Origin: Nannochloropsis oceanica
Taxonomy: Eukaryota; Sar; Eustigmatophyceae; Eustigmatales; Monodopsidaceae
Assembly: GCA_004519485.1 (NCBI GenBank)
Contig: CP038132.1
Coordinates: 863,001 to 927,000, forward strand
DNA length: 64,000 bases
Reading direction: 5' to 3'
Shown: in pieces, positions 34,435 through 64,000 of the stretch
How positions within the stretch are numbered: the stretch's first letter is position 1
Layout of the letters: every line of letters starts with the position of its first letter
Position numbers and translations under genes: made by a program
The notes under the pieces: generated by a model
What the model saw: only the letters and a program-made list of their open reading frames with translations
Database searches by the model: none
Told to the model about the DNA's origin: nothing

Positions 34435-36649
34435 ATGGGCGAGGAAGAAGAGTGTCGGGAGCAGCAGCTGCTAGAGGTGGAATCGCTCCAAGCCATTTTG
34501 GGAAGCAGTGACCACAGTCATTCGGGGGATGGGGAGGCAACAGAGATCCCCGGCGACGCAAGCTTCCAGGTGCGAGGTGATGGCACAGTCAGAGAACCAT
34601 TCCACCTGCGCTGCGAGGTAGATGTGGCCCTGCCTCCTAATGAAGTAATTGACATCGTGGTGGTGGCTGACTCCGAAGAAGCCTGTGGTGCGTACGCAGA
34701 GGCTGTGAGTCCTCATTCTGACTCCACCTCTGAGAGTCGTAAGTCTCAACCTCCGCTAACCTTGCGCGGCATCAAATACCTCCCTCCAGTCACGCTCCAT
34801 CTTGTCATGCCGCTTACTTATCCCTTGGTCGCCCCACCTGAACTCTCGTTTGAGTGTGTGTGGTTCGACGCGCAGGCGACCGCGCGGGTGAGAACGGAGC
34901 TAGTGCGCATGTGGGATGAGGTGTACCAAGGTGGACCCGTAGTTTTTTCTTGGTTGGAATGGCTGCAATATGAGCTCGTGGATAGGCTTCTAGAAGAAGC
35001 AACGTCTGTCAATGTAAGAGAAGAGGAGGACAAAGAGGGGGAAAAAGGAAAGGAAGCAGCAACAGGTGGAGCAGAAGCAGCAAGTGAGGCCGGGTCACGA
35101 CGACGACGGCTCGTCTTGCGAGGACCGCCGCCATCATTACCCTCAACCAACAACGAAGAAGACTACGTAGATGATACTAAAACCTCAACTTCCTCTTGTA
35201 CTTCGTCCACTTGGCCCACACGCTTCCGCCTTATTCTTGCCCACGCGTACGTCCAAGCGAGCGCCGCCTTCCTTCGAGGCACACATACGTGCTACATTTG
35301 CTTCGAGGAGCACCCAGGGCACTCCTTCGTGACCCTCCAGTGCGGTCATTGGTGGTGTCGACCGTGCTTGACAACAATGGCGAGCACGTACGTCGGGGAG
35401 GGAGGGCAGCACTTGCAGTGGTTGGTGTGTCCCCGTCCCGATTGTGCTGCAGAAATCACGCCCGATATATTGAAGCATGATTTGTTGTCAAGTGAGGAGT
35501 ATGAACGATGGGAGCGCTTGTCATTACTGCAGGCGTTGGACAAAATGGGAGATGTGGCCCGTTGCCCGCGTTGCCAGACCCCATGCTTGACGGAAGGTGG
35601 GAAGAAGGAGGGAGGGAGCGAGGGGGGAGCTGTTAGCGGTGGCGCCGCTGCAGGTGACCTGGGCGAATGCCCTCAGTGCTTTTTTGTCTTTTGTCCGCAG
35701 TGTCAGGATGCGTACCATGCAGGGACACCGTGCTATTCGTCAGAAGCGAGGCTCAAACAAGTGGAAGCCGAAATAGCGCGTTTGATGGCTTCGAGCCACG
35801 GCGGGAAGTCCCTGGCCCCCTCCCAGAACGCCCGGCTTGAAAAGCTGAGAAGGGCGGCAGAGGAGTCCTTGAGTAGGAAAGTTGTGGAGAAGAACGCAAG
35901 GTCCTGTCCGGCTTGTGGGATGAGTGTGGAGAAGGTGGAGGGGTGTAACAAGATGAGGTACGCTCGTGGGTATAGAGAAGTGGCTGCGTCTGTGGTACAG
36001 AGAGGTGGTCGCGTCTCTCATCCTCCGTCCGTCTCTCCCTCCGTTCCTCCATCCCTCCCTCCACGTGCCATTTTGGATGCTTTCCAATTCCGTCATACTG
36101 TTCTTCATTATTTCCTCCCTCTCTCCCTCCCTCCCCCTTGTCCGTAGATGTCAATGCGGCGTGCTCTGGTGCTGGAAATGCCGGAAAGACATTTCCTCTG
36201 AGGGTTACGCTCACTTTCGCGAAGGCGCCGTAGGGGCATGTAATTTGTGGGAGGCGGAATCTTTGCTTGCCTGGCAGAGACAGATGATGATGATGGAGGG
36301 CGGGCGGGAGGGAGGGAGGGTGGCAGGATGGGGGGGAGGAGGAGGGGATTTGCATGGAGAGATGGCGAGAATGCTGCAGTGGGGTCGGGGGTGGGATGGA
36401 GGTGGTGGAGGAGGAGGAGAAGGAGGGGGACGTCGGCGTCGACGGGGGGAGGAGGTGGAGGGAGGAGTGAAATTAGTCAGGTGTGGGGCTTGCAATGCGA
36501 TGAATTTGAAAACGGACAGTAACAACCACAGGAGGTGCGGGGCGTGTCGAAGGAATTATTGCGCCGTATGCGGTTGTTGCACATTTCGAAAGGCAAGCGA
36601 TCATTTTGGGGGCGCCAAGCCCTGTAAGCAGCACTCGGGGGTGGGCTGA
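34435..36649 (+). CDS. RNF14-like RBR E3 ubiquitin ligase (RWD-RING1-IBR-RING2), two exons
   Basis: Exons 34435-35957 and 36148-36649 (donor GTACGC, acceptor CCGTAG) join in phase to 674 aa. Residues ~1-190 are an RWD domain, opening EECREQQLLEVESLQAILGS and containing YPLVAPPEL. RING1 starts CYICFEEHPGH and has CGHWWCRPCL. The IBR includes CPQCFFVFCPQCQDAYHAGT. RING2 starts CPACGMSVEKVEGCNKM; C504 in GCNKM should be the cysteine that carries the ubiquitin thioester. The intron splits RING2 just before CQCGVLWCWKC. After a Gly/Arg-rich insert there is a further Cys/His module (CGACNAMN, CGACRRNYCAVCG, HFGG, CKQH). RWD plus RBR is the layout of RNF14/ITT1, which acts on stalled translation factors in animals and yeast. 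Confidence 0.92.
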
Positions 36650-44852: not shown

Positions 44853-45474
44853 GCGTTTTCATTGTGAAACAGTAGTTCTCCTACATTCTGTGTAAGACTT
44901 TTCACCAACAGAAATCGATTATAAGCCCTCTCCCATGAGTACATGTAAAAAATTAGATTATGTCTCCTCGTGCGAGTTCATTTTTTATGAGGACGTTGAC
45001 CGGCGCGGTACCCGGACTGGCCCATACTATGGCAGAGGCTACCTGCTCCACTATTAATTCCATTATGCTCTATAAGGCTGCTCGGTCTTTGATGCTCCCT
45101 GAAGAACATGCCTTTTCGTCCTCCTGGTTGTACGTGAAAGTGACGGAGAAGTGTAAATACTCGCGATTAGCGAAAGCAGGATGGGCAAAAAGAAAACATG
45201 GGGGAGGTTCGCCTACAATCCGATGCTCGTTTCCCCCATCCAATACACCGCGAAAAGAATAAATCTCATGATTGATTGTCATCAATTGTCTTTGTGGAAG
45301 CTAAAGCTGCTCTAGGCTTGGTCACTATAGATTTCTTAGAGCCACATATAACCCCTGATGGAAAAGTTCGAAAAGCCGTTGCCAAATGCGCATCATCAAC
45401 CCTTGAAATTTTGTTCCATACATTTTGGCCTCTATCAAAATTACCCACACCATCCACAGCATAACCGCATGCTA
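44853..45474. other. Spacer upstream of the IFT172-like gene
   Basis: The region should contain the IFT172 promoter. The frame of that gene is open from 45358 but the added residues are not conserved. A 100-codon plus-strand frame from 44960 has no motif and I do not call it. Confidence 0.45.
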
Positions 45475-48400
45475 ATGCACCACCTCAAGACATGGCGACC
45501 GTGCCTGTCTGAGAATCTAAATCCCTCCGCGGACAAGGTCACAGCCCTTACCTGGTCGCCAGACGGGACCAAATTGGCCGTGGCAACCGTGGGCCGAATG
45601 ATCTGGCTCTACGATGCCCAGGACGGCGTGCGACGAGACAAATTCCCCACCAAATCTGCCCGCCAAGCGATGGAAAAAGAAAGAGAAGAACAAGAAGGAA
45701 AAGGCATTGATTCAGCTGCTAAGACGACGACCGTATCCTACGTGGTCACTGCCTTGGCTTTCTCGCCCGACTCGATCAAGTTGAGCGTTGCACAGAGCGA
45801 TGGTGGCGTCTACGTCTACAAGCTGGGGAGAAGCTGGGGCCATAAGAAAAGCATCTCCCACAAATTTTCCCACGACAGTCCCGTCACCTCTATGCTCTGG
45901 CCGCCCCATCTTCCTTCTGAGGACGCCCAGCTTGTCTACGGACTTGCCGATGGTAGAGTTATTGCGGCTCGTCTCAAGTCCAACAAGGCTAAATCACTGG
46001 GATCATCTCCTTCATCAAGTGTAAGCGAGAGCTACGTCATAGCTTTGGCCCTGCATCCCGATGGTGCCAGCGCGGTGATTTCGGCTCACTACGATGGAAG
46101 CCTATGCTGGCACCCGCTGACGTCTTCCTCCGTGTCCTCTTCGACCTCCACGTCGCGCCTGCTGGCGCGACACACCTGTTCACCTTTTGTCTTGGCGTGG
46201 ATTAAAAATGTCGTGGTAGCAGCTGGGAATGACCAGCATGTTGCAGTGTACCATCCTGAGCTGGGCCAGGTGCTTCATGTCTTTGATTACTCCTCTTCCT
46301 CTCCGTTTTCTTCGGTGCCCTGCAGAGAATTTACCTGTGCCGCCGTCTTGGGCTCAACGCTTGTTGTCGGAAATTTTGATTCCCTCTATGTGTACAAATG
46401 TGCCTCTTCAACACAAATAGCGAAACCTTCAACGGCCACCCCCATTCTGGAGCACGTCGGCATCCACTACGTTCCACACCTATACAGCGCTACTGCCCTC
46501 GCCTGGAGCGCAGACGAGCGTCGATTGGCCGTTGGGTCCTTTTGCGGCGCGGTGGATGTGTATGAAAGCATGATAATTATGCCATCATCGCTCTCACAGC
46601 AGCAGAATGAGGTGCACCACCAGTATCAATCATCGGCCTACCTACCTCTACCATCAATTTCGCAACCATCACACCTCTCGCCATCCGTCCCTCTTGTGCT
46701 CTCCCCTGAAGAGCAACTCTTTCGAGATGCCAAATTGATGGTATTCGAGAAAGGAATCCAGCTGCTCCAGAGTCGAAATCTACTTGAGGCTGCCGTGGAC
46801 CACGCCATGGCGGTCAAGGACTTTGCGTACGCCCTCAAGGTGTGTGATTTGAGCTTGCCCCAAAGACTTGCATGCGTGCATCACCAGCATGCTCGATATT
46901 TACAGCAGCAAGGCCAGTACACTGAAGCGGAAGAATCGTTTCTCTTTGCCAAAGCTCCGCGCGATGCCATCGATATGTTTCTCTCCCCACTCCTCCGTGA
47001 CTACAGCAGCGCCCGACGCCTGGCAGAAAAGCATGCACCTTCCTTGGTACCCACCATCCTCGAGGCACAAGCGGACGCATTACTGCAGCGGTCACGACAG
47101 GGTTATACCATTACGGAGAAGGACGCCGCTAAATACAGTCAGGCCGAGGCCCTTTATCTGGCCGCGGGACAACCGGAACAAGCGCTTAACATGTACATGG
47201 AGGCACAGCATTGGGCGGAGGCTTTTCGCATCGCCCACCGCCATCTTTTCCATCGGCTGATTGATGTCGTGACAATTGCAAAGGGTGAGCGCACTGCATA
47301 TTCCGATTGTCTGACCAACCCTATTACCCCCTCGTCGTCGTTTCGGGTAGAGCCCGACGATATTCTCAGCGCTGTGGGCCCCAAAAGCATGACGCCCCTT
47401 CGTGTCGCCGCCACATTCCTGGGTCAGCGGCATGAATGGGCGCACGTATGGAGCATGCTTGATTACCAAATAAGCAAGGACAAGGACAAAAGCAAAGAAG
47501 GTGGGCAAATGCAAGCTCTACGGGACGACATGGTAGTTTTACGGGTCCAACAAGTTCTTGGAGACCAAAAGGCGCATACCTTGGCTGTGCTACGGGAGGC
47601 ATTGGATATTCTCAAAGCATATGGTGGACCATGTGTTGATCACCTTGGCTTCTATCGATGCTTAGCAGTGTCGGTCTTGGGTGGACGCTCCCAAAAGGAC
47701 GAACTCGAGCACTCTGTGATTCTCCAAGCTTTGCTCCGTGATTTCCGGGGAGTTCTCTTCGACGCGCTCCGCCGGAGCGAGCAGAACAACCGGACGAGAA
47801 AAAAGAATGCGAACAATGAAGGAGCAAAAGCGACAGACGCAGTGGCAACAGATGCGGGGGTGGCGGGCGTAATGATAACGGCGTCCAAAACGAAGATTGA
47901 TACTCTGCAGGAGGATGACGAAAGTGACAAAGACGAGGAGTTCATGCAGATCTTCTTGAGCGTGCATTACACGAACATTCTCTCCCATATCTCTAAACTT
48001 CTCGGCAGTGATAGCGGTACCAACAACAGCAGGGGCCATACCAAAAAACGAGTGCCCATCCCTTCCGAGCGCTTACTCTTGGAACTTGCTTGCAAAATAT
48101 CCCTCGTCCTTCTAAGATATTCTCCAACTTATTCTTCTCTCGATAAGGCATTTTATACCGCCGGCACATTCATCCGCCGCTTATCTCAGTACGAAGAGGC
48201 AGAAAAGGGAAAGTATGGAAAACTATACAAGCACTTGGCTTTTCTCCTCTTGAATCGGTATATTGATTTAGCAGAGGCCATAGAAGACAAAATGATCGCG
48301 GAGGAGGAGAAGTGTGGAAGGGATGGAGAAGAGAAGATGGGGGGTGAGGTGGAGAAGCGCTGTAACGATGTACAGATTGATATGAAAGGCTTAGCAGGAT

Positions 48401-48867
48401 GCACAGCCTTGCCGCAAGCAATGACCCCCATTCCTCGCAGGCAGTATGTAGAAAATGAAGCAGAGCGAGAAGAGATCAAGACCTGGGTGCTGGCTGTATG
48501 TAAGGAAAAGGCGGACGGTAAGATAGACCAAGCTTCGCTGCCGTCACCAACCGACGCCATGGGCACGCTGTTTGAGGGATTGTACGCTACAAATCTGGGA
48601 AGGAGAGGTGAAGAGGGAAGAGGAGAAGAAGCCAGATGTATCCTGACAGGCTACCCACTACAGGAATCGCAGAAGCAGCAGGTAGGAGGAGGGAAGGATG
48701 GAACACGAAAAGAAAGGCACTTTGCCAACAAAGAGGAGTGGGCTGTGTGGGTCAAGGCGTTCAAGACGTGTCCGTGGACGGAAGAGAAAGTCTCTACCTC
48801 CACTACGACGATTAGAAGTACTGGTGTGCGTAAAAAACGAGACTTTCCTTTATCCCCTATCAGATGA
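45475..48867 (+). CDS. IFT172: IFT172-like intraflagellar transport protein lacking the second WD40 propeller
   Basis: The ORF is 1130 aa and intronless. The start at 45475 (MHHLKTWRPC) matches IFT172 N-termini (MxLKHLKT); another ATG lies six bases upstream. The first WD40 propeller is clear: KVTALTWSPDGTKLAVATVG, LYDAQDGVRRDKFPTK, ALAFSPDSIKLSVAQSDGGV, WGHKKSISHKF, and LAWSADERRLAVGSFCGAVD. A typical IFT172 has a second propeller of ~300 residues next. Here a ~50-residue linker leads directly to the helical array (LFRDAKLMVFEKGIQLLQSR, YTEAEESFLFAKAPRDAIDM, YSQAEALYLAAGQPEQALNM). The C-terminus keeps ARCILTGYPLQ and FANKEEWAVWVKAF, the end module of IFT172. IFT172 is a peripheral IFT-B subunit in cilia. 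At 1130 versus ~1750 aa it is short. Confidence 0.8.
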   Translation: MHHLKTWRPCLSENLNPSADKVTALTWSPDGTKLAVATVGRMIWLYDAQDGVRRDKFPTKSARQAMEKEREEQEGKGIDSAAKTTTVSYVVTALAFSPDSIKLSVAQSDGGVYVYKLGRSWGHKKSISHKFSHDSPVTSMLWPPHLPSEDAQLVYGLADGRVIAARLKSNKAKSLGSSPSSSVSESYVIALALHPDGASAVISAHYDGSLCWHPLTSSSVSSSTSTSRLLARHTCSPFVLAWIKNVVVAAGNDQHVAVYHPELGQVLHVFDYSSSSPFSSVPCREFTCAAVLGSTLVVGNFDSLYVYKCASSTQIAKPSTATPILEHVGIHYVPHLYSATALAWSADERRLAVGSFCGAVDVYESMIIMPSSLSQQQNEVHHQYQSSAYLPLPSISQPSHLSPSVPLVLSPEEQLFRDAKLMVFEKGIQLLQSRNLLEAAVDHAMAVKDFAYALKVCDLSLPQRLACVHHQHARYLQQQGQYTEAEESFLFAKAPRDAIDMFLSPLLRDYSSARRLAEKHAPSLVPTILEAQADALLQRSRQGYTITEKDAAKYSQAEALYLAAGQPEQALNMYMEAQHWAEAFRIAHRHLFHRLIDVVTIAKGERTAYSDCLTNPITPSSSFRVEPDDILSAVGPKSMTPLRVAATFLGQRHEWAHVWSMLDYQISKDKDKSKEGGQMQALRDDMVVLRVQQVLGDQKAHTLAVLREALDILKAYGGPCVDHLGFYRCLAVSVLGGRSQKDELEHSVILQALLRDFRGVLFDALRRSEQNNRTRKKNANNEGAKATDAVATDAGVAGVMITASKTKIDTLQEDDESDKDEEFMQIFLSVHYTNILSHISKLLGSDSGTNNSRGHTKKRVPIPSERLLLELACKISLVLLRYSPTYSSLDKAFYTAGTFIRRLSQYEEAEKGKYGKLYKHLAFLLLNRYIDLAEAIEDKMIAEEEKCGRDGEEKMGGEVEKRCNDVQIDMKGLAGCTALPQAMTPIPRRQYVENEAEREEIKTWVLAVCKEKADGKIDQASLPSPTDAMGTLFEGLYATNLGRRGEEGRGEEARCILTGYPLQESQKQQVGGGKDGTRKERHFANKEEWAVWVKAFKTCPWTEEKVSTSTTTIRSTGVRKKRDFPLSPIR

Positions 48868-49076
48868 GACAATTAAAGAAAATAAGAGATGGAGAAATAA
48901 AAAAATAAGGGGCAAACTTGTAAGGCTCTATAAAAATTGCGCGAAATACAGCACATGCACTTTTGCAGCAATCTTTTCGGTCGCATATTTCCCTAAAAGC
49001 CGAAGCCCTCCTCCCTAGTTTCCTTTCTCTTCGTTCTATCATGCCTCCGTGTATGCTAAAAATTTTCTCCCACTTC
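48868..49076. other. Short convergent spacer
   Basis: This AT-rich stretch between the IFT172-like stop and the uL15m stop contains AATAAAA-like sequence near 48895 on the plus strand, a possible poly(A) signal. No gene is present. Confidence 0.5.
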
Positions 49077-61231: not shown

Positions 61232-64000
61232 TTATACAGCCACCACGCCTTCCTTTTCCTTCTCTTTTTCCTTCTCCTTTCTCTTCTCTACCTCTGAACG
61301 CCCTCTTCCACCATGCCCATCCTCCCAGGTGCCTCCCTCCAGCGCCCCTGCCACCGCCCGGGCTTTCAATATCATTTCTTCGTACTCCTTCTCTCGGTCT
61401 GACATGGCGACGATCGCGCCTCCCGCCCCCACAGTCACGACTCCCGGCGCACACACCGCCGTCCGTATCACAATGTTCAAATCAGCCGCCAGACCGTCCA
61501 TAGCCACATAACCCAATGCCCCGCTGTATGGCCCGCGTTCCCGCCCTCCCTCTAACCTCGAAATGATCTCCATCGTTCTCTTCTTGGGCGCGCCCGTCAT
61601 GGAGCCACCTGGAAACGACGCTACCATCGCGTCTATCGCATCCTTATCCTCCGCCAACACACCCGTCACCGTCGAGACCAGCTGGTGCACAGTCGCATAC
61701 GTCTCCACGGCCATCAGTCGTGGTACTTTCACCGTACCCGGACGTGCGATGCGGGAGATATCATTTCGAACCAGGTCGACAATCATGAGATTCTCCGCGC
61801 GATTTTTCTCGCAGGCGGCCAGGCCGGCGGCGAGCACTGCGTCCTCCTCAGCCGTTTGCCCGCGACGGACCGTGCCTTTGATAGGCTTAGACTCCACCTG
61901 ACGACTCGCTCGGGTCACGCGCAAAAAGCGCTCGGGAGAGGAACAGCAGACGGCCACCGCAGGCGCACCAGGAGTTGCAACAACAGGATCAACACCGCCT
62001 TCCCTCCCTTCCTCCCTTCCTCCCTCCCCGTTCTGCGCCTGCCGCAGTCGCCCCTGCGGGTCATGCCGCAGGTACGCCGAAAAGGGCGCCGGGTTCTTGC
62101 GACGCAGCCGACGGTAGAGGTAGAAGGGATCGAGGGATGAGGGCAGGTCCGCAGCCAGTTGCCCTGTCAAGCAGACTTCGTACGTCTCACCGGCGGCGAT
62201 GAGCTCCAGGCACTGGTCGACGCGCTGCTTGTACTCTGTAGGAGAGACAAGGGATTTAAACGCCAGCCCCAAGGCCGGGGATGGTGAAGGAGGAGTTGAA
62301 CGAGGAAGCAGGTCGCCCTGGTGCTCGTGGTAATGCCTCCCTCCCTCGTCACCCGCTCCACGCTGTTCCCCTACAATCGCCCACACCCTGTCCTCCGTAT
62401 GCCGTAACCATGCCTCGGCGGCTTCTTCGCAATCTTTTCCTCCCTCCTTCTCCACCACCGCCACCAGCGTCAATGTCCCTGCCACGTGGTCAAACGCAAG
62501 TAGCCGGTCCGCGAACACAAAGGCAGCATCCGGCGTCGTCTTCACCTGTGCCACCGCCCCGCCTTCCCGCCCTCCCTCCCTCCCTCCCTCCCCCGGCTCC
62601 TCTTCCTCCTCCTCCTCTCCTCGTTGCAACCGCAAACAATCGTCTTTAAGTTCGTAACCAAAGTATCCTACATACCCACCCCAGAAGTCAGGCAGGCCGT
62701 TTGTAGGTACCCCTCCATCCTCCCCACCCTCCTTCCTTCCCTCCCCTTCCTCCCCTAAGAAGGAAAACGTGATTCCCCCTTCTCTGAATGCACGGGTGGC
62801 GTTCTGAAGGTGATCGAAGAGAGTCCCACCTCTCTCCTCCCTCACGACCTGCCCATCCCGCCCTCGCACCACGCGGAGTAGCGAAGAGGAGGAAGAGGAG
62901 GAGGAGGAGGAGGAGGAGGAAGAAGAAGAAGAGGAGGAGGGAGGGAGGGAGGGAGGGGAAGGTAGGTAGTATTCAACCACATGCGCCAACCCCGAGCCCG
63001 ATGCCGCGTCTCCCATGTAAGAAAACCTTCCCCCCATCGCTGGCGGGACCAATGCACTCTCTCCCTCCTCCTCTTCCCCTCCTCCCCTCCTTCCCTCCTC
63101 CCCCCACGCCGCATCGCTAACCTGAGTGGCACTGCTATCGAGCCAAAATGCCGTATCTTGTCCCGCATACAAAGAGGCAAACAGGGCTTCCGATAGGGCC
63201 TTTCCCTTCTTCCTTCCCACCCCCGGCACCCTCCCAAGGCGCCGTACCATGACGTGATATTTTGGGGTACTGCTCAAAGGGGCAGAAGGAGCAGTGGAGG
63301 GATGAGTGGAAGAAGGAGAAGAGGAGGGCTTCTCGGCTTCCAACATCATGGCAGCGAATGTAGGCACATTTTTATCCACATACACCCCTATTGTCGCCCT
63401 GTCTTGCTCCCTCCCTCCTGCCCTCGCCCGAGCCCTCTCCCGCGTTAGCCGATAGAAGTTTCGAAGCAATGCATGGCCGTGCTGTGTCCCGATCGACTCC
63501 GGGTGGAATTGCACCCCATAGTGCGGCCTTGTCTTGTGCTGCAGTCCCATCAAGATCCCGTCCGCCGTCCACGCCGTTTCCATCAACGGCCAGTCCCTTC
63601 CCTCCTTCCCTCCCTCCCTCCCTCCTCCTCCCCCTCTAGGAGCAGGCGGATCCACAACAAGCGAGTGGTACCGCACCGCCGCGAAGTCCTGCGGAAGATT
63701 CGCAAAAACTCCTTCCCCTGTGTGTGTAATCCTCGACAACCTCCCGTGCACCGGTCCTTTCGGTGCACGTCGCACGGTTCCACCATGTAAGAAACCGAGG
63801 CCTTGATGCCCCAAGCAGATGCCGAGCACAGGAATATCCATCTCAAGCTCTAACGCCGCGCGGGAAAGGCCGAAATCTGATGGTACATCTGGCGATCCGG
63901 GGCCTGGGGAGATAACAATATTGTCGAATGGGAAGTAGGAGGAGGAGGAGGAAGAAGAAAAGGAGGAGGACGAAGGGGTATGGGCAGCGAGGAGGCGGGC
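61232..64000 (-). CDS. Aminodeoxychorismate synthase, PabA-PabB fusion, 5' end outside window
   Basis: The frame is open to the right edge, so only the start is missing; at least 922 codons are present without introns. First comes the glutamine amidotransferase part: ISPGPGSPD, then GICLGHQGLG with the nucleophilic Cys, YHSLVV, and QFHPESIGTQHG with the His and Glu of the triad. The chorismate-binding part follows: SPTEYKQRVDQCLELIAAGE, SSPERFLRV, SKPIKGTVRRG, ENLMIVDLVRNDI, FPGGSMTGAPKKRTMEII and GALGYVAMDGLAADLNIVIR. PIKGT carries the Lys that marks aminodeoxychorismate synthase; anthranilate synthase has Ala there. The enzyme converts chorismate and glutamine to 4-amino-4-deoxychorismate for folate, probably in the plastid as in plants. 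Ser-rich and Glu/Gly-rich inserts interrupt surface loops. Confidence 0.93.
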   Translation of the reverse strand, partial: ARLLAAHTPSSSSFSSSSSSSYFPFDNIVISPGPGSPDVPSDFGLSRAALELEMDIPVLGICLGHQGLGFLHGGTVRRAPKGPVHGRLSRITHTGEGVFANLPQDFAAVRYHSLVVDPPAPRGGGGGREGGKEGRDWPLMETAWTADGILMGLQHKTRPHYGVQFHPESIGTQHGHALLRNFYRLTRERARARAGGREQDRATIGVYVDKNVPTFAAMMLEAEKPSSSPSSTHPSTAPSAPLSSTPKYHVMVRRLGRVPGVGRKKGKALSEALFASLYAGQDTAFWLDSSATQVSDAAWGEEGRRGGGEEEEGESALVPPAMGGRFSYMGDAASGSGLAHVVEYYLPSPPSLPPSSSSSSSSSSSSSSSSSSSLLRVVRGRDGQVVREERGGTLFDHLQNATRAFREGGITFSFLGEEGEGRKEGGEDGGVPTNGLPDFWGGYVGYFGYELKDDCLRLQRGEEEEEEEPGEGGREGGREGGAVAQVKTTPDAAFVFADRLLAFDHVAGTLTLVAVVEKEGGKDCEEAAEAWLRHTEDRVWAIVGEQRGAGDEGGRHYHEHQGDLLPRSTPPSPSPALGLAFKSLVSPTEYKQRVDQCLELIAAGETYEVCLTGQLAADLPSSLDPFYLYRRLRRKNPAPFSAYLRHDPQGRLRQAQNGEGGREEGREGGVDPVVATPGAPAVAVCCSSPERFLRVTRASRQVESKPIKGTVRRGQTAEEDAVLAAGLAACEKNRAENLMIVDLVRNDISRIARPGTVKVPRLMAVETYATVHQLVSTVTGVLAEDKDAIDAMVASFPGGSMTGAPKKRTMEIISRLEGGRERGPYSGALGYVAMDGLAADLNIVIRTAVCAPGVVTVGAGGAIVAMSDREKEYEEMILKARAVAGALEGGTWEDGHGGRGRSEVEKRKEKEKEKEKEGVVAV

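Follow-up and report, generated by a model that had tools for sequence, protein, structure and literature searches.

The eustigmatophyte alga Nannochloropsis oceanica carries a much shortened gene for the intraflagellar transport (IFT) protein IFT172, which lies at positions 45475–48867 of the forward strand in a 64,000-nucleotide stretch of its genome (contig CP038132.1, positions 863,001 to 927,000; hereafter the window). We propose, with a probability of roughly 0.68, that this remodelled protein belongs to a stripped IFT train lacking dynein-2, which serves an undescribed flagellated stage whose flagellum has outer dynein arms only. In the proposed model, IFT172 would have been reduced to three modules, namely the first WD40 propeller, a C-terminal part made of tetratricopeptide repeats (TPRs) and a U-box-like end, its middle having presumably been deleted in frame and a flexible linker left in its place. 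The short protein would then tether IFT57 to IFT144 in a pared-down train that is driven by kinesin-2, runs without dynein-2 and builds a brief outer-arm-only flagellum in a gamete or zoospore. Here, we describe the frame, the domains it has lost and the genes found and not found alongside it, and then weigh the protein contacts, the train behaviour and the life stage that they suggest.

The IFT172 frame and its domain layout

The gene is a single open frame of 1130 codons without any stop, for which the chance of arising at the base composition of the frame is 1.8e-22. Its codon use is coding-like: against a table built from nine long open frames in the window (one of these reference frames had a negative score of its own, -0.114), the frame scores 0.117 bits per codon, versus -0.197 and -0.288 for the two alternative readings, and each retained part of the protein likewise scores above zero when read in this frame and below zero in either alternative. 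In-frame ATG codons at 45469 and 45358 are possible alternative starts; a start at 45475 (or 45469) would fit better than one at 45358, because residue 20 of the query pairs with residue 17 of the Chlamydomonas chain. A 23-base direct repeat in two copies (window 48862–48909) spans the stop codon.

The identity of the 1130-residue protein was addressed by a phmmer search against all Protein Data Bank (PDB) sequences. The top match was Chlamydomonas IFT172 (8bd7_S, E 6e-70), followed by a C-terminal crystal construct of human IFT172 (9h2d_A, E 2.1e-7) and, in third place, by IFT144 (E 0.018). As judged by these similarities, it is confirmed that the frame encodes IFT172 by descent and not another WD40-TPR protein, the gap in E-values ruling out IFT144, IFT140, IFT80 and IFT121 as alternative identities. 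A Pfam search of the same protein returned generic WD40 matches and no family name, and a single-sequence structure prediction reached a mean pLDDT of 36.9.

Residues 1–367 (45475–46575, forward strand, as are all parts listed here) make up the first WD40 propeller, of which residues 20–367 align to 8bd7_S 17–322 with 121 of 302 aligned letters identical. Residues 368–423 (46576–46743), delimited by the gap between aligned stretches and by composition, form a linker of 56 residues rich in serine, leucine, proline and glutamine, which stands where Chlamydomonas IFT172 has residues 323–1105; its residues 369–422 have a weaker codon signal (-0.136), yet this is still the best of the three frames. 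Next comes a TPR array (residues 424–598; 46744–47268), aligned to 8bd7_S 1106–1266 with 55 of 161 letters identical, and then a mostly unaligned region with low-complexity stretches (residues 599–863; 47269–48063), in which the PDB search gave no significant stretch. Residues 864–939 (48064–48291) are C-terminal TPR helices, aligned to 9h2d_A 79–140 at 10.7 bits, which is weak alone; these helices correspond to the IFT144/IFT140-binding region of IFT172 (PMC13290226), through which IFT-A is tethered by way of IFT144 in known anterograde trains. Finally, residues 984–1098 (48424–48768) form a U-box-like domain with TGYP and ANKEEW motifs, aligned to 9h2d_A 159–251 at 19.9 bits (domain i-E 0.0015). 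The C-terminal stretch 919–1102 also aligns to 8bd7_S 1602–1747, at 8.6 bits, which is weak and not significant alone. Read by eye, the alignment retains the TGYP loop and has W instead of F as the aromatic residue of ANKDNWNKF.

The three retained parts, including the TGYP and ANK motifs of the U-box-like end, are those of the Chlamydomonas and human proteins. Canonical IFT172, in contrast, has 1755 residues, and about 783 of them (Chlamydomonas 323–1105), comprising the entire second propeller and some 480 TPR residues, have no counterpart in N. oceanica. No second propeller is found within the 45475–48867 frame, and the extended TPR array of the canonical protein, with its IFT80-binding region 626–785, is likewise absent from it, the TPR match starting at chain residue 1106. 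The Pfam model TPR_IF140-IFT172 matches the protein weakly (E 0.17), beginning at profile position 292 of 486. On this layout we class the protein as a divergent variant of IFT172 and not as the canonical architecture.

An earlier note on this DNA, made from its letters alone, had described an IFT172 homologue in an intact 3.4-kb frame, with a linker of about 50 residues behind the first propeller and a C-terminal TGYP...ANKEEW module. The results above bear out all of these points, and no other WD40-TPR family gives a better match. The note had also reported the second propeller as lost, which is right for the propeller itself and too small for the gap, since the additional TPR residues are gone as well; that the lost part corresponds to the region which in known trains would contact IFT80 and dynein-2 had been overlooked.

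The missing middle

The first propeller and the TPR part are joined by 168 bp of DNA that is open throughout, and because both sides are connected in this way no intron can house the missing part; an intron concealing the second propeller, which the note had raised, is ruled out at this junction. A different explanation is that the second propeller and the TPRs were lost in assembly or lie in a separate gene, which we regard as highly improbable. It draws on the fact that the evidence comes from a single assembly and that Pfam TPR models are weak on the short IFT172. Against an assembly error, the in-frame linker aligns to neither flank and no tandem repeat was reported at the junction: the repeat finder returned three short arrays near the gene and none between propeller and TPR part.

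A separate gene for the middle was sought in the whole assembly, which comprises 29.26 Mb in 32 contigs with intron-containing genes and was searched in six-frame translation; searches with human queries used approximate sequences and scored the best 16 of 35 candidates. The query for the missing part was the middle region of human IFT172 (972 residues), which Pfam recognises as IFT-type TPR. It matched at residues 1–32 (E 0.2) and 810–972 (E 6.4e-20), both inside the short IFT172 gene, and the remainder of the middle had no match in the genome among the candidates scored, although the flanking TPR part finds the IFT172 gene with ease. Genome-wide, the TPR_IF140-IFT172 model found one gene only, on contig C1, which is IFT144; this is a weak test, as the IFT172 of the window is also unmatched by it. 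Neither search revealed a second piece of a split IFT172 gene.

Motors, train components and their contacts

Dynein heavy chains were sought with two models of different heavy-chain regions, which gave six and five matches, respectively, and arrived at an identical set of four genes. Typed by best solved structure, using pieces of 1306–1431 residues, the first is dynein-1 and the other three are outer-arm chains: the beta chain, the Tetrahymena alpha chain (gamma in Chlamydomonas) and the Tetrahymena gamma chain (alpha in Chlamydomonas). The frames of these three outer-arm genes run open for 4180, 5053 and 4546 codons. Neither a dynein-2 heavy chain, which the note had named as worth looking for, nor an inner-arm heavy chain is among the four genes typed. 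We know of no use of outer-arm dynein heavy chains outside a beating axoneme. The presence of outer-arm chains without inner-arm chains or dynein-2 corresponds to an outer-arm-only set, as defined from PMC2239267.

A kinesin-2 motor is present: at the one kinesin locus that was typed, the five best PDB matches are all kinesin-2, after which the score falls from 258 to 218 bits. Seven IFT-B proteins (IFT172, IFT57, IFT38, IFT46, IFT88, IFT80 and IFT52) and two IFT-A proteins (IFT144 and IFT140) were sought. Five of the seven IFT-B proteins were found, namely IFT172, IFT57, IFT38, IFT46 and IFT88. IFT57 is recognised by PF10498 (E 1.6e-16, covering profile positions 1–155, the N-terminal region) and by PDB IFT57 (E 3.9e-5), and IFT88 by six matches on contig C12 (best 3.2e-23) and by PDB IFT88 (E 6.1e-55). 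IFT46 is present at two loci (1.8e-9). These loci, C1:1667026–1668391(-) and C3:1503884–1505245(+), have near-identical scores, and the former lies about 2.3 kb from the end of contig C1 (1,670,642 bases); from their scores and position the pair looks like a recent duplication, maybe near a chromosome end. IFT38, or CLUAP1, is present at C16:482576–483066(+) (1.6e-10) as its coiled coil only (profile positions 154–266 of 268), and both genome-wide matches of the Cluap1 model are to the coiled coil. In both the IFT57 and the Cluap1 model, we place the CH domain at the N-terminal end. No CH domain of IFT38 was found in five plus-strand and one minus-strand upstream open frames, a search that small exons could escape.

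On the IFT-A side, IFT144 is present (PDB IFT144, E 4.7e-113), whereas IFT140 gave no match with two models genome-wide. For IFT80, PF23335 had no match at E<=1 and PF23387 found IFT144 only, in a test with no IFT80-bearing control genome; both models recognise an approximate human IFT80 sequence. That human sequence itself matched, among the candidates scored, only inside its first propeller (residues 90–296) and at the IFT144 gene. Two of the propeller loci were examined, and the best of them (E 8.9e-7) is POC1-like. The POC1-like WD40 protein (C1:534534–535385) has bacterial and designed WD40 proteins as its best matches, with POC1 of a centriole structure in fourth place, over 301 residues in one stretch. 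Towards its C-terminus, a helical stretch looks like the POC1 motif on visual inspection. A POC1-like protein with such an end suggests that centrioles or basal bodies may be retained. The flagellar genes named here are spread over 10 contigs (C1, C3, C4, C5, C6, C12, C15, C16, C20 and C22) of a single assembly, and contamination is for this reason unlikely.

The segment lost from IFT172 can be compared with the contacts reported for canonical trains. In anterograde trains, propeller 2 of IFT172 forms a bridge between two copies of IFT80, the first TPRs of IFT172 are wrapped by IFT80, and the microtubule-binding domain of dynein-2 sits in a trench between the TPRs of adjacent IFT172 molecules; propeller 1, in turn, holds the CH domain of IFT57, and the C-terminus reaches IFT144 (PMC10191852). 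The IFT80-binding region has been assigned to residues 626–785, and the C-terminus binds IFT144 when the train is anterograde and IFT140 when it is retrograde (PMC13290226). By alignment, the N. oceanica protein has lost the IFT80-binding part together with a large share of the TPR array, and it retains the parts for IFT57 and IFT144; the genes for both of these partners are present in the genome. The exact dynein-2 contact residues would fall inside the lost stretch, the sources naming the TPR domain without residue numbers. The deletion seems to go with a loss of the partners themselves: no dynein-2 heavy chain was found, and IFT80, the CH domain of IFT38 (the other dock of IFT80) and IFT140 (the partner in retrograde trains) were not detected. 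It would seem that the train has been rebuilt, the dock in IFT172 for the parked retrograde motor having gone together with the motor.

A possible flagellated stage, reuse or decay

The closest published parallel is the centric diatom Thalassiosira pseudonana, which lacks dynein-2 and all inner-arm dyneins and yet has motile axonemes in its gametes (PMC2239267). As in N. oceanica, kinesin-2 and some IFT proteins are kept there; the list for T. pseudonana includes IFT52, IFT88 and TTC30a and omits IFT172, IFT80 and IFT-A (PMC5654045). N. oceanica differs in keeping a short IFT172 and IFT144 and in having no known flagellated stage. Elsewhere, six flagellar genes including IFT172 are jointly overexpressed during male gamete formation in Leptocylindrus (PMC5654045), a flagellated stage has been inferred from IFT genes in Parmales (PMC10328945), and Monodopsis has kept flagellar genes while its zoospores are undocumented (PMC8570151). 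We give even odds to a more specific version of our proposal, in which transport is one-way: a train free of IFT80 and dynein-2, with IFT172 shrunk to a direct tether from IFT57 to IFT144, would build an outer-arm-only flagellum in an unseen stage, probably a gamete.

Several points weigh against this proposal. Reports of a flagellated Nannochloropsis cell are lacking (PMC6610115, PMC4736243), and the former source, the genome paper, interprets its low number of flagellar genes as a sign that flagella were lost; it also counts 4 genes as inner-arm. RABL2, which tracks with cilia, is reported missing from Nannochloropsis (PMC4736243), and Ostreococcus retains the inner-arm dynein I1 with no known flagellum (PMC2239267); kept dynein genes alone do not imply a flagellum, because Ostreococcus has this inner-arm dynein without one. 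From our own searches, IFT52 was not found among the best 16 of 35 candidates for the approximate human query; as an IFT-B core protein, reportedly kept in T. pseudonana, it would be a strange loss from a functioning train, and IFT46 and IFT88, likewise IFT-B1 proteins, are present; in each IFT46 copy an exon match crosses a TAG in a provisional gene model; the Pfam TPR models are silent on the retained TPR of IFT172 itself, so that a divergent separate piece could escape them; and every absence comes from searching a single intron-containing assembly in six-frame translation.

Some of these points can be turned into an alternative in which flagella were lost and the short IFT172, IFT57 and IFT144 were kept for vesicle traffic, the spindle or the cell wall. 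Such reuse would equally account for loss of the dynein-2 dock; it agrees with flagella never having been reported and with many flagellar genes being gone (PMC6610115), with the capacity of IFT proteins for non-ciliary roles (PMC7536321, PMC6974671), with the inner-arm dynein of flagella-less Ostreococcus (PMC2239267) and with the failure to find IFT52. What it leaves unexplained are the three open outer-arm dynein frames and the retention of a kinesin-2 motor, IFT88, IFT46 and a POC1-like protein, and we consider it unlikely. The earlier note had suggested a non-ciliary or cryptic role; the evidence supports the cryptic part, while a purely non-ciliary role is the less likely one because three outer-arm dyneins, kinesin-2, IFT88, IFT57, IFT46, IFT38, IFT144 and the POC1-like protein have all been kept. 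The searches that the note had in view recovered IFT88, IFT57 and kinesin-2, and the ordinary full IFT set that the note had named as speaking against its reading does not apply here, as the dynein-2 heavy chain was not found and IFT80 and IFT140 went undetected.

Alternatively, flagella may have been lost recently, with the short IFT172 a leftover on its way out. The reduced flagellar gene set, the low-complexity stretches in residues 599–863 of IFT172 and the TAG within the IFT46 exon match are compatible with such decay. We nevertheless hold it to be quite improbable: IFT172 has 1130 stop-free codons with coding-like use across the retained domains, its deletion is in frame and positioned between domains, and each of the outer-arm dynein frames is open over more than 4000 codons. 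A comparison is provided by Hyaloperonospora arabidopsidis, likewise a stramenopile with reduced flagellar genes, in which flagella were lost and 211 of 257 flagellar gene orthologs are absent; there, the loss left broken remnants, IFT172 among them (PMC3471859), whereas the frame in N. oceanica is open.

The previous count for N. oceanica by Guo 2019 gave 29 flagellum genes, including 2 tubulin, 2 radial spoke, 6 central pair, 6 outer-arm and 4 inner-arm genes and, for transport, 2 IFT-A, 7 IFT-B and 0 BBSome genes (PMC6610115). These numbers are read there as explaining non-motility, and the accessible part of the paper mentions neither the shape of IFT172 nor the kept heavy chains. Among the listed titles and abstract openings of open-licence PubMed Central papers, none was found on a short IFT172 or on Nannochloropsis dynein heavy chains. 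If our preferred reading of a stripped train in an unseen flagellated stage holds, the published claim of flagella loss becomes a specific prediction, namely that a biotechnology species treated as asexual has a motile and possibly sexual stage that has escaped notice. The short IFT172 would, moreover, amount to a natural deletion experiment on IFT-B2. Wickstead and Gull asked what does, or obviates, the retrograde job in IFT organisms without dynein-2 (PMC2239267), and this question could be put to the test in a transformable alga.

Two further frames in the window have recognisable domains. An RWD and an IBR domain at 34435–36147(+) mark a candidate RBR-type ubiquitin ligase, and an 869-residue frame at 61232–63841(-) combines glutamine amidotransferase and chorismate-binding domains, as in synthases of the anthranilate or aminodeoxychorismate type.

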